From the NCBI GenBank assembly GCA_902623215.1, contig CACNSS010000002.1, positions 1-64,000 of the forward strand: 64,000 bases of DNA, given 5' to 3'. The notes under the pieces are model-generated. The model was not told the DNA's origin and ran no database searches. It saw nothing but the letters and a program-made list of their open reading frames with translations. A program made the translations under genes and the position numbers. This document shows positions 59,650-63,832 of the stretch, piece after piece (position 1 is the stretch's first letter; each line of letters opens with the position of its first letter). This stretch comes from an uncultured Pelagibacteraceae bacterium. Its GTDB lineage: Bacteria; Pseudomonadota; Alphaproteobacteria; Pelagibacterales; Pelagibacteraceae.

Positions 59650-60422
59650 AAAAGATTAATTTAGCTGTAACTGGGTGTTTGGGAAGAATGGGGCAACAGA
59701 TAATTAAATCTGTCAAATCAAATAAAAAATTTAAGTTAGTAGCTGTAACCGAAAATAAAAAAACTCATAAAAAGCTTCAAGGTTTAAACATATCAAAAAA
59801 TAATTTAGAAGTTTTTAAGAAAACAAATCTAATTATAGATTTTACAATCCCAAAATGTACGATGGAAATATTAAAAATTGCTTTGAAATTGAAGAAGAGA
59901 GTAGTTATTGGTACTACTGGTTTTACAGTAAAAGAGGAAAGTTTAATTAAAAAATACTCAAAAAAAATACCAATTTTAAAAGCAGGAAATATGAGCTTAG
60001 GTATTAATCTGCTGATGTACCTAACAGAAATAACTTCGAAATCGCTAGGAGATAATTTTCAAAGTAAAGTATTTGAAGTACATCATAAACACAAAAAAGA
60101 TTATCCTTCAGGAACTGCTTTAATGCTTGGAAAAGGAATTGCAGATGGAAAAAATAAAAATTTATATAACTTAATTGGAAAAAAATACCTAAACAAAAAA
60201 ACTTTCCCATATGGAAAAAAAATCAATTTCAATTCAATTAGAAAAGGTGAGATAATAGGTGAACATGAAGTTAAATTTTCAAGCGGAAAAGAAATAGTGA
60301 CATTAAATCACGAGGCTTTCGATAGAGCTTTATATTCTGAGGGTGCATTGTCTGCTGGTGAATGGTTAATGACCAAAAAACCAGGTCTTTATTCAATGCG
60401 AGATCTTATGAATTTCAAGTAA
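59646..60422 (+). CDS. dapB: 4-hydroxy-tetrahydrodipicolinate reductase
   Basis: LAVTGCLGRMGQQI, VFEVHHKHKKDYPSGTA; start at internal Met. Confidence 0.96.
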   Translation: MKKINLAVTGCLGRMGQQIIKSVKSNKKFKLVAVTENKKTHKKLQGLNISKNNLEVFKKTNLIIDFTIPKCTMEILKIALKLKKRVVIGTTGFTVKEESLIKKYSKKIPILKAGNMSLGINLLMYLTEITSKSLGDNFQSKVFEVHHKHKKDYPSGTALMLGKGIADGKNKNLYNLIGKKYLNKKTFPYGKKINFNSIRKGEIIGEHEVKFSSGKEIVTLNHEAFDRALYSEGALSAGEWLMTKKPGLYSMRDLMNFK

Positions 60423-61075
60423 TGACTGAAATTCAGAGAGCAAAAATTATTTTAAAACATCTTAATAAAATATATCCAAATATTAGAGTTCCTCTAAAGA
60501 GTCGCAATATTTTTACATTATTAATCTCTGTTTTATTATCTGCACAATGTACTGATGTAAATGTTAATAATGTTACAAAAAATATATATCCTAAATATTA
60601 TAAACCACGTCACTTTTTAAAATTAGGAAGAAAAAAAATTGAAAAACTTATAAAAAAAATCGGTATTTTTAGAATAAAGGCAAAAAGTATATACAATCTT
60701 TGCCATATATTAGAAAAAAACTATAATGGCAAAGTTCCACAAACATTTGATGAATTAGAACAACTACCTGGAGTAGGTCATAAAACGGCTAGTGTAGTTA
60801 TGTCTCAAGGATTTGGTTTTCCAGCATTTCCTGTTGATACTCACATTCATAGATTAGCTCAAAGATGGGGATTAACTAACGGTAAGAACGTTGTGCAAAC
60901 CGAAAAAGATTTAAAAAGATTATTCCCAAAAAAATATTGGAATAAACTTCATCTACAAATTATTTATTACGGTAGAGAATATTGTAAAGCACGAGATTGT
61001 TATGGATTATCTTGTAAAATATGCACTAGTTGCTATCCTGGTAGAAAAAAACCAATCAAAACAAAAAAACCATAA
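60422..61075 (+). CDS. nth: Endonuclease III
   Basis: LLSAQCTDVNVN, LPGVGHKTASVV, C-x6-C-x2-C-x5-C Fe-S loop. Confidence 0.96.
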   Translation: MTEIQRAKIILKHLNKIYPNIRVPLKSRNIFTLLISVLLSAQCTDVNVNNVTKNIYPKYYKPRHFLKLGRKKIEKLIKKIGIFRIKAKSIYNLCHILEKNYNGKVPQTFDELEQLPGVGHKTASVVMSQGFGFPAFPVDTHIHRLAQRWGLTNGKNVVQTEKDLKRLFPKKYWNKLHLQIIYYGREYCKARDCYGLSCKICTSCYPGRKKPIKTKKP

Positions 61076-62005
61076 ATGAAAGTTTTAGGTATAGGAAATG
61101 CTATTGTAGATGTGATCTGTAAAGTAAATGATGATTTTTTAATAAAAAACAATCTTACTAAAGGACTAATGAAGCTAATATTTGATGAAACTGAATTTTC
61201 AAATTTGTTGTCTAATTTGAAAATTGAAAAAACAATTTCAGGGGGTTCTGTTGCAAACTCGATAGTGGGTTTATCACAATTAAAAAATAATGTTGGTTTT
61301 ATCGGTAAAATATCTGATGATGATTTTGGTGCAAGATATGAGGAAGGTTTAAAAAAAGAAAATGTAAATTTTCTTTATACAAAAAAAAAAGAAATTCTTC
61401 CTACAGGAACGTGTTTAATTTTGATTACTCCTGACTCAGAGAGAACTATGTGTACTTTTTTAGGCACCGCAGGAAAAATAAATAAGAACGATTTAGATAT
61501 TAACGCAATAAAACAGAGTGAATTAATCTTTCTAGAGGGTTATTTGTGGGATAAAGGAGAACCCAAAGAGGCTTTTGAAAAAGCTATCAATTTATCAAAT
61601 AAAACTGCGATGTCTTTATCTGATAAATTTTGTGTCGATAGACATAAAACAAATTTTTTAAACTTAGTGAAAAATGATCTAGATTTAGTTTTTGCAAATG
61701 AAGGTGAAATTACATCCTTAATTGATACTACAAATTTTGATGAAGTAATTTCCTTTTGTAAGGAAATAAAAAAACATTTAATCATAACCAGGGGCGAGAA
61801 AGGTGCAATCTCAATTTATAGAAACGAAGTAGCAGAAATCAGTGCCAAAAAAGATCTAAAGATTGTAGATCTTACAGGTGCAGGAGATTTATTTGCATCT
61901 GGTTACTTACATGGATATATTAACAATTTTTCCCAAAAAGAATGCTTAGTGAAGGCAACAGAAATGGCCTCTAAAATAATACAACAAATTGGGGCACGGA
62001 TTTAA
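61076..62005 (+). CDS. PfkB-family sugar/adenosine kinase
   Basis: GGSVANSIVGLSQL, DLTGAGDLFASGYL. Confidence 0.92.
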   Translation: MKVLGIGNAIVDVICKVNDDFLIKNNLTKGLMKLIFDETEFSNLLSNLKIEKTISGGSVANSIVGLSQLKNNVGFIGKISDDDFGARYEEGLKKENVNFLYTKKKEILPTGTCLILITPDSERTMCTFLGTAGKINKNDLDINAIKQSELIFLEGYLWDKGEPKEAFEKAINLSNKTAMSLSDKFCVDRHKTNFLNLVKNDLDLVFANEGEITSLIDTTNFDEVISFCKEIKKHLIITRGEKGAISIYRNEVAEISAKKDLKIVDLTGAGDLFASGYLHGYINNFSQKECLVKATEMASKIIQQIGARI

Positions 62006-62124
62006 ACTTTTTTCAATCTTTTAAAGCTTCCTTTGCCTTTTTTTGGTTTTATTACTCTTGGCTTAAATTTTTTAGTAAATAGTTCCTTAGCAAACTTATT
62101 TTTTTTTTGAAATTTGGTAACCAT
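62002..62124 (-). CDS. arfA: ArfA-like alternative ribosome-rescue factor, 40 aa
   Basis: Manual translation MVTKFQKKNKFAKELFTKKFKPRVIKPKKGKGSFKRLKKV; aligns with ArfA core 'LF..RVxKxKKGKGSYxRK'. Confidence 0.72.
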   Translation of the reverse strand: MVTKFQKKNKFAKELFTKKFKPRVIKPKKGKGSFKRLKKV

Positions 62125-62668
62125 TTTTCTTACTAATTATTAGATTATCATCAAAAAACTTCTCTTTAATCTTTTTTCTTAATCTATGAATATGAGTTTC
62201 TACTGTATGGGTTTCTAATTTAGATTGATATCCCCAAACTTTTTCTTGTAACTCATGTACTCTGGTCGGTAATTTATTTTTAGATAAAAAGATAATTGTA
62301 TCTATTTCTTTTTCTGTTAGTTTGAGTTTTTGATTTTCTAGAATCATCTCTCTAGAATTTATATTTATTATATATTCACCAACATTTATATTAGATTGTT
62401 TGATGAAATTTTTTTTTAAAAACTCAACATTTATTTTTTCTAAAAGTTTTGTGAGTTTGATTGGAGAATTATCAACTAAAATCAGATTAGGCAGATTTGA
62501 ATGTTTCTTATCAGATAAAACAAGAAAGTGATCATGGTCTTTAAATTGAGCATTTAAGATTTCTTTTTTTGTAAAACTAGTAATTTTAAAATTTAAATGT
62601 TCTTCTATCTCTTTAAAAATATCATAAAGTATGGGTAATTCAAAAATAAACAAAGTTTGATTATTCAT
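62096..62668 (-). CDS. OmpR-type winged-helix regulator with degenerate receiver-like domain
   Basis: LTEKEIDTIIFL, VWGYQSKLETHTVETHIHRLRKKI; start at internal Met. Confidence 0.82.
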   Translation of the reverse strand: MNNQTLFIFELPILYDIFKEIEEHLNFKITSFTKKEILNAQFKDHDHFLVLSDKKHSNLPNLILVDNSPIKLTKLLEKINVEFLKKNFIKQSNINVGEYIININSREMILENQKLKLTEKEIDTIIFLSKNKLPTRVHELQEKVWGYQSKLETHTVETHIHRLRKKIKEKFFDDNLIISKKNGYQISKKK

Positions 62669-62681
62669 ATATAAATACAAT

Positions 62682-63176
62682 ATGATAATTATTTTAAAAA
62701 ACAAACATTCTCTTAAAATTGATGATTTTAACTTTAAATGTTGTATTGGAAAAAATGGTCTGAGTAATAAAAAAAGAGAGGGTGATAAAAAAACTCCAAT
62801 AGGTATTTTCAACCTAGGAAATTTATATTATAGAAATGACAGATTAAAGAAACCTTTTACGAAATTAAATTGCATTAAGATCCATAAAAGAATGGGATGG
62901 TCAAATAACACAAAAGATAAAAAAAATTATAACAAATTAATCGATATTAAAAATCAAAAAAAATACGAGAAACTTTTTAGAAGAGATTATAAATATGATT
63001 TAATAATTCCAATTAAGTATAATTGGAAAAAAAATATTTTAAATAAAGGAAGTTGTATCTTTTTACATTTGACAAAGACATATAAACCAACAGCTGGGTG
63101 TATCGCATTAAAAAAAAAGGATTTTTTAATTATGTTAAAACTCATTAATAAGAAAACAAAAATTAAAATCTGTTAA
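62682..63176 (+). CDS. L,D-transpeptidase (YkuD) family protein
   Basis: KKTPIGIFNLGNLYYR and IFLHLTKTYKPTAGCIALKKKD. Confidence 0.85.
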   Translation: MIIILKNKHSLKIDDFNFKCCIGKNGLSNKKREGDKKTPIGIFNLGNLYYRNDRLKKPFTKLNCIKIHKRMGWSNNTKDKKNYNKLIDIKNQKKYEKLFRRDYKYDLIIPIKYNWKKNILNKGSCIFLHLTKTYKPTAGCIALKKKDFLIMLKLINKKTKIKIC

Positions 63177-63832
63177 GCTCTTTCACCAAAAATAGCTGAA
63201 CCAATTCTCAAATAAGTTGAGGAATTTTCAACTGCTTCAGTGTAATCTGAAGACATTCCCATACTTAATTCTTTCAAATTAAGACTTTTATTTAATTTAT
63301 TTAATTCTTGGAAAAAAGGAGTTGGATTTTGGTTAATTGGTGGAATACACATCAGACCAATAATATCTAATTTTAAATCTTTGCAATATAAATAAAAATC
63401 TTTGAGATTATTCTTTGATATTCCAGATTTTTGTTCTTCTTCTCCAAGATTTACTTGTATAAATATTTTTACCTTTTTATTTAATTTTACCTGCTCGTCA
63501 GCAATTTTTTTAGCAAGTTTCTTATTATCAACTGAATGAATATAATCAAAAATTTTTATGGCAAATTTAACTTTGTTTGTTTGAAGTTTACCTAACAAAT
63601 GAAGTTTCAATTCTGATTTTTCAGATTTAATATTGCTCCATTTATCTAGTGCCTCTTGAACTTTGTTTTCACCGTAATCTATATGTCCATGATTGATCAA
63701 CGGCATTATTTTCTCTAATGGGAAAGTTTTAGAAACAGCAATAATAGTTAACGCTTTCAAATCATCTGAGTCAACTATTTTGGATTTTACAAGTTTCTCA
63801 ATATATAATAATTTTTGTACAGATTCATGCAT
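63173..63832 (-). CDS. YggS-family PLP homeostasis protein
   Basis: IIAVSKTFPLEKI, DYGENKVQEALDKW, LSMGMSSDYTEAVENSSTYLRIGSAIFG. Confidence 0.94.
   Translation of the reverse strand: MHESVQKLLYIEKLVKSKIVDSDDLKALTIIAVSKTFPLEKIMPLINHGHIDYGENKVQEALDKWSNIKSEKSELKLHLLGKLQTNKVKFAIKIFDYIHSVDNKKLAKKIADEQVKLNKKVKIFIQVNLGEEEQKSGISKNNLKDFYLYCKDLKLDIIGLMCIPPINQNPTPFFQELNKLNKSLNLKELSMGMSSDYTEAVENSSTYLRIGSAIFGERA

Follow-up and report, generated by a model that had tools for sequence, protein, structure and literature searches.

Do SAR11 bacteria encode an ArfA of their own? In published descriptions the ribosome-rescue factor ArfA occurs only in beta- and gammaproteobacteria (PMC8012679, PMC6881298); in 2024, a survey recorded arfA in 0 and arfB in 2,022 of 2,376 Alphaproteobacteria (PMC11633108). 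The preliminary description of the window, a 64,000-nt stretch of Pelagibacteraceae DNA, nevertheless read a 40-residue open reading frame as an ArfA-like factor from a SAR11-like host. The host assignment agrees with the contigs of close homologues, which are named Pelagibacteraceae and in some cases labelled Candidatus Pelagibacter ubique. The interpretation of the frame as ArfA is supported, and the preliminary description was right on the essentials. To these we add the spread of the gene through the order and its losses, the missing ArfB, a measured lack of the hairpin, altered RF2 contacts and copies in phages. The survey used nucleotide profiles (PMC11633108), which may explain why it missed the SAR11 gene.

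Organization of the arfA locus

The arfA frame (MVTKFQKKNKFAKELFTKKFKPRVIKPKKGKGSFKRLKKV) lies on the minus strand at 62002..62124 and was delineated by the ORF list, PF03889, a SAR11 profile and its pN/pS. In the ORF list of the window it begins with ATG, and its 40 codons encode exactly the sequence quoted earlier. The KKGKGS motif (residues 28-33, corresponding to E. coli ArfA 33-38) is encoded at 62026..62043, and Phe20, the equivalent of the RF2 pocket contact Phe25, at 62065..62067, both assigned from the sequence and alignments and both on the minus strand.

As first described, the frame overlaps two genes. Its start extends by 29 nt (62096..62124, minus strand) into the 3' end of the upstream winged-helix regulator gene, which encodes an OmpR/PhoB-type C-terminal domain (62096..62668, minus strand; PF00486, E=7.7e-12) and is syntenic in relatives. 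This overlap is consistent with translation of both genes from one shared mRNA. On the other side, the stop codon of arfA shares 4 nt (62002-62005) with that of a convergent pfkB-family sugar kinase gene (61076..62005, plus strand; PF00294, E=2.1e-42). Immediately upstream of pfkB lies nth, coding for an HhH-GPD DNA glycosylase (60362..61075, plus strand; PF00730/PF00633), which synteny identifies as a conserved flank of the site.

By sequence, the SAR11 protein belongs to the ArfA family

ArfA acquires its fold on the ribosome, and family membership was assessed here by sequence. The window protein matches PF03889 with E=1.4e-5 and 24.9 bits, 0.6 bits short of the curated cut-off of 25.5, and aligns only to positions 23-42 of the 44 in the model. 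It is the sole PF03889 match in the source genome (0.96 Mb, 78% complete assembly). Other SAR11 orthologues push the match N-terminally, to positions 8-18. Throughout Pelagibacterales, PF03889 matches were found in 201 of 297 genomes, in 113 of them above the cut-off, bearing out the ArfA signature noted in the preliminary description. Weak matches in a second family of the order (E about 1e-4) were not counted as ArfA. No NCBIfam model matches the 40-residue protein, PHROGs returns a weak match to a family of unknown function, and a single-sequence search of the window protein against E. coli ArfA reaches E=0.05 only.

A profile of 28 aligned SAR11 orthologues (A1) recovers the window protein with E=5.5e-17, a value to be read with the window sequence itself being part of the profile. 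Among PDB sequences, A1 matches six E. coli ArfA chains with E between 2e-6 and 5e-6, mostly from cryo-EM entries of ArfA/RF2-ribosome complexes, while the next match has E=0.57. The 32-column alignment to E. coli ArfA contains no gap and takes in N14, the RF2-contact segment and the basic tail. In it, SAR11 residues N9, L15, F20, R23, V24, K26, K28-S33, F34 and R36 pair with N14, L20, F25, R28, V29, K31, K33-S38, Y39 and R41. Compared profile to profile with 14 gammaproteobacterial ArfA proteins, the SAR11 orthologues reach a probability of 97.3 and E=2.3e-11. The PKKGKGS core is invariant in 28/28 aligned orthologues. The two features whose lack would have spoken against the preliminary description, a PF03889 match and conservation of KKGKGS in syntenic frames, are both present, the match being significant although just below the cut-off. 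By sequence, the ORF at 62002-62124 is almost certainly a member of the ArfA family.

Two other rescue factors were considered as identities and rejected. The 40-residue protein lacks the RF-1 domain with the catalytic GGQ and is not ArfB (YaeJ). ArfT of Francisella tularensis resembles the SAR11 protein in its length of about 40 residues, its basic tail, the lack of a truncating hairpin and its origin from a small, neglected ORF (PMC6299226). However, the ArfT tail reads KKGGSTNKK and an aromatic equivalent to F25 is absent, whereas the SAR11 tail is KGKGS and the aromatic is present; the ArfT features are known here by their published description.

Distribution, synteny and selection in SAR11

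Profile A1 finds arfA in 204 of the 297 Pelagibacterales genomes and in 117 of the 150 near-complete ones; about a fifth of the latter are without the gene. The order pfkB> <arfA-<regulator LDt> yggS (arrowheads give orientation) is found in 28 of 31 search loci, with nth mostly beside pfkB, and pfkB and the regulator flank arfA in all 80 genome-contig loci. In two genomes of one genus (G001 and G007), arfA is relocated and has a 4-nt overlap with the stop of an unrelated gene upstream. Directly 3' of the relocated gene in G001, before a transporter-like gene, a TPP-riboswitch-like sequence (CTGAGA...ACCCTTTAAACCTGAT; L008:1410-1500, minus strand) was noticed by eye.

The gene is under strong purifying selection. 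Across 81 SAR11 loci the arfA frame has a pN/pS of 0.116, and four of the other five frames have values of at least 1.8. The fifth (0.27) is the antisense frame with codon positions that mirror those of arfA. The ArfA core is near-invariant across these loci, at which the regulator retains only 34-55% identity. In nine arfA-free genomes, pfkB and the regulator are adjacent with no arfA between them, so arfA is a discrete unit and no by-product of its neighbours. In a pfkB tree, the absence of arfA maps to three changes on well-supported branches nested among arfA-bearing lineages. The pattern reads as that of a gene present in the ancestor and lost three times or more, a lower-bound estimate from a single-gene tree with only nine arfA-absent rows.

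Beyond Pelagibacterales, ArfA-like frames are sparse in Alphaproteobacteria: a sample of some 370 genomes contained them in about a dozen. These scattered frames (L038-L044, L284-L297) include those of G575 (NPIARALRTPTFRQRKIRPKKGRGSYSR) and G628 (ADPKYRKRVIKAKKGKASYTRKGRQ).

Release factors and other rescue systems

The preliminary description had named ssrA/smpB and arfB as genes to look for. A full alpha-type tmRNA is present in 19 of 20 SAR11 genomes, and SmpB likewise in 19/20; the incomplete assembly of the source genome holds tmRNA fragments only. A search for RF-1-domain proteins in 155 genomes found no ArfB: at most two such proteins occur in 154 of them and three in one. In G000, G001 and G003 the two are RF2 and RF1, and prfB is present. 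The prfB match in G000 (L046) is open except for two TAA codons that lie in frame close to the 5' end, a pattern consistent with either a programmed frameshift or an error in the sequence.

The residues of E. coli RF2 that contact ArfA have been described (PMC5378476). SAR11 RF2 keeps RHTSF (213-217) and W319, with V198 replaced by isoleucine. On the ArfA side the contact surface is kept only in part. Leu19, Leu24 and Phe25 of E. coli ArfA together touch Trp319 of RF2, the KKGKGS region sits in the mRNA tunnel (PMC5378476, PMC6299226), and the A18T mutation inactivates the protein (PMC5378476). The Phe25 equivalent, position 20, is F or Y in 28/28 SAR11 orthologues. In the ungapped alignment Leu19 corresponds to D/E14, Leu24 to K19 and Ala18 to K13. 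Among 14 aligned gammaproteobacterial ArfA proteins, positions 19 and 24 are variable and A18 is invariant; the three positions are E. coli contacts and no published criterion for ArfA membership. With their equivalents changed, activation of RF2 through the same contacts is not assured.

SAR11 arfA ends at an ordinary stop codon

E. coli makes ArfA from an mRNA that is cut upstream of the stop codon (PMC8012679). We folded sliding 60-nt windows around the gene end and found a strong hairpin in 30/30 gammaproteobacterial arfA loci, with a median best MFE of -31.4 kcal/mol (z -6.6), versus -8.6 kcal/mol (z -0.65) for 81 SAR11 loci. A stable hairpin is thus not typical of the 81 SAR11 loci folded, and a terminator scan of 61500-63200 detected nothing. 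The SAR11 frame runs on for about five codons past KGKGSF and closes with an ordinary stop. These results extend the earlier remark that the ORF contains no strong hairpin, and the difference between the 81 and 30 loci supports the suggestion that its regulation departs from that of E. coli arfA. Hairpin-based nonstop control appears to be absent in SAR11; truncation by other routes is possible. An RNase III/terminator hairpin of this kind concerns how E. coli controls the gene rather than what the protein does.

If its message is ordinary and ends in a normal stop, SAR11 arfA should be made constantly and not only when trans-translation fails. Judging from the gene ends, expression of SAR11 arfA is probably constitutive and independent of a nonstop message.

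Proposed function and alternatives

We propose that the chromosomal gene encodes a minimal ArfA that corresponds approximately to residues 6 to 45 of the E. coli protein and would rescue ribosomes stalled at the 3' end of mRNAs that lack a stop codon. The empty mRNA tunnel would be occupied by the basic tail (KPKKGKGSFKRLKK), and the segment from L15 to V24, including the aromatic residue 20, would hold RF2 in the A site, where RF2 would release the nascent chain. Such a factor would back up tmRNA-SmpB in an order without detected ArfB, and its gene, which probably shares a transcript with the upstream regulator, would be read from a message with a normal stop. Taken as a whole, a chromosomal minimal ArfA that serves as an RF2-dependent backup to tmRNA is a well-favoured reading. 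Of its parts, ribosome rescue is very likely the job of the protein, and RF2 is likely its partner.

The relationship to the E. coli, gamma- and betaproteobacterial proteins (YhdL, PF03889) rests on the 32 ungapped residues, the KKGKGS-type tail and the presence of the RF2 gene. In contrast to the 72-residue E. coli protein, the 40-residue SAR11 version has a shortened N-terminal extension, an ordinary stop without a truncating hairpin, and no conservation of L19, L24 and A18. BrfA of Bacillus subtilis is likewise a rescue peptide that recruits RF2 and has a basic tunnel tail (PMC6881298), but its sequence is unrelated to ArfA and its message is truncated (PMC6881298, PMC11633108).

The altered contacts raise the question of whether the SAR11 protein is an ArfA homologue with another partner range, which like ArfT activates RF1, alone or in addition to RF2, while its KKGKGS tail still reads the tunnel. 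Rescue factors are in many cases specific for a release factor (PMC6881298). ArfT works with RF1 or RF2, has the same length of 40 residues and likewise has no hairpin that would truncate its message (PMC6299226), and the patch on which RF2 dependence relies in E. coli, L19, L24 and F25 (PMC5378476), is reduced to one aromatic in SAR11. Yet that aromatic is kept in every one of the 28 SAR11 sequences, at a position where ArfT has no hydrophobic residue, the ArfA-binding surface of SAR11 RF2 is conserved, and the tail is of the ArfA type, KGKGS and not KKGGSTNKK. We regard a changed partner range as improbable.

Considerably less probable still is that the protein is a basic micropeptide whose binding to the ribosome or RNA serves other ends, for instance in assembly or in the tuning of translation, and which has just the tunnel tail in common with ArfA. 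It is true that the best similarity lies in the basic tail, where Pfam aligns just positions 23-42 of 44 of the model to the window protein. However, the alignment of the SAR11 profile with E. coli ArfA is uninterrupted from N14 across the RF2-contact segment, the Pfam match of other orthologues reaches back to positions 8-18, and the profile-profile probability is 97. The AT-rich composition of these genomes, in which short lysine-rich ORFs abound, and the existence of arfA-free SAR11 genomes might suggest a chance or decaying ORF with a look-alike motif. The invariant core, the conserved site and the pN/pS of 0.116 speak against this, as does the direct adjacency of the regulator and pfkB where the discrete arfA unit is missing; selection and synteny together lead us to reject an AT-rich artefact, the chance of which is negligible.

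On the minimal-ArfA reading, the most abundant cells of the ocean probably own a ribosome-rescue backup that has been overlooked. ArfA is a standard gene in SAR11, the dominant surface-ocean bacteria, in genomes without detected ArfB, and it closes a gap in the picture of ribosome rescue in these streamlined cells. The protein represents a naturally minimal ArfA that lacks the regulatory tail of the E. coli factor, and SAR11 offers natural strains with and without the gene.

ArfA in marine phages

The same ArfA core occurs in at least 245 viral contigs of IMG/VR, and the host-type site was found in 0 of 80 viral contigs fetched. Several arfA-bearing contigs carry phage genes, for instance for a clamp loader, DNA polymerase, endolysin or tail proteins. 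On contigs with T4-type replication genes, arfA lies right behind the clamp-loader gene (L097:3055-4102) or upstream of the DNA polymerase gene (L152/L155:3048-4105); this replication-gene neighbourhood is recurrent. A tblastn search of phage and plasmid records with the 40-residue protein gave no match, perhaps owing to the BLAST low-complexity filter; a longer viral version recovered the phage copies. Matches of 22 residues in Acinetobacter phages (E=4-5) were not counted as ArfA.

Among phage isolates, HTVC027P, HTVC034P and Cr30 carry the core. The records of HTVC027P gp30 and HTVC034P gp63 say only hypothetical protein. A passage of PMC12753301 names HTVC027P gp30 ArfA for its PF03889 domain, and within that passage the host copy goes unmentioned. 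The gp30 region of the phage genome has 69% identity to the viral-contig ArfA query. It differs from the SAR11 gene in being a phage gene adjoining that of the terminase small subunit and in its longer N-terminus.

That many marine phages carry this peptide suggests a benefit to the phage from ribosome rescue during infection. Thirty-five residues are too few to settle the direction of transfer between phage and host. In a more speculative and rather unlikely scheme, one minimal ArfA, constitutive and hairpin-free, would be common to the whole order SAR11 and its phages; it would have taken over from ArfB, be unchecked by trans-translation, move between phage and host and have a rebuilt release-factor contact, possibly with both RF1 and RF2.

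Further ArfA-like frames were seen in phages of other hosts. Caulobacter phage Cr30 (KF301602.1, L252:2459-2620) has an unannotated ArfA-like ORF (...RNPIAKALRSSHLQPKIVKPRKGKGSFTRKGK) between two annotated genes; Caulobacter, its host, has no ArfA (PMC11633108). In Roseobacter phage CRP-212 (MZ892988.1, L253:2477-2611), an ArfA-like ORF (MRQKNPVAKILRTPRYRQRKVMPKKGKGSYKRNTKHRKETT) overlaps the annotated gp38 near its end, and a weak ArfA-like match in CRP-13 resembles it. The Pfam family DUF7230 (PF23876, unknown function) weakly resembles two viral ArfA-like proteins over the same stretch (E about 0.01) and may be a relative of ArfA.
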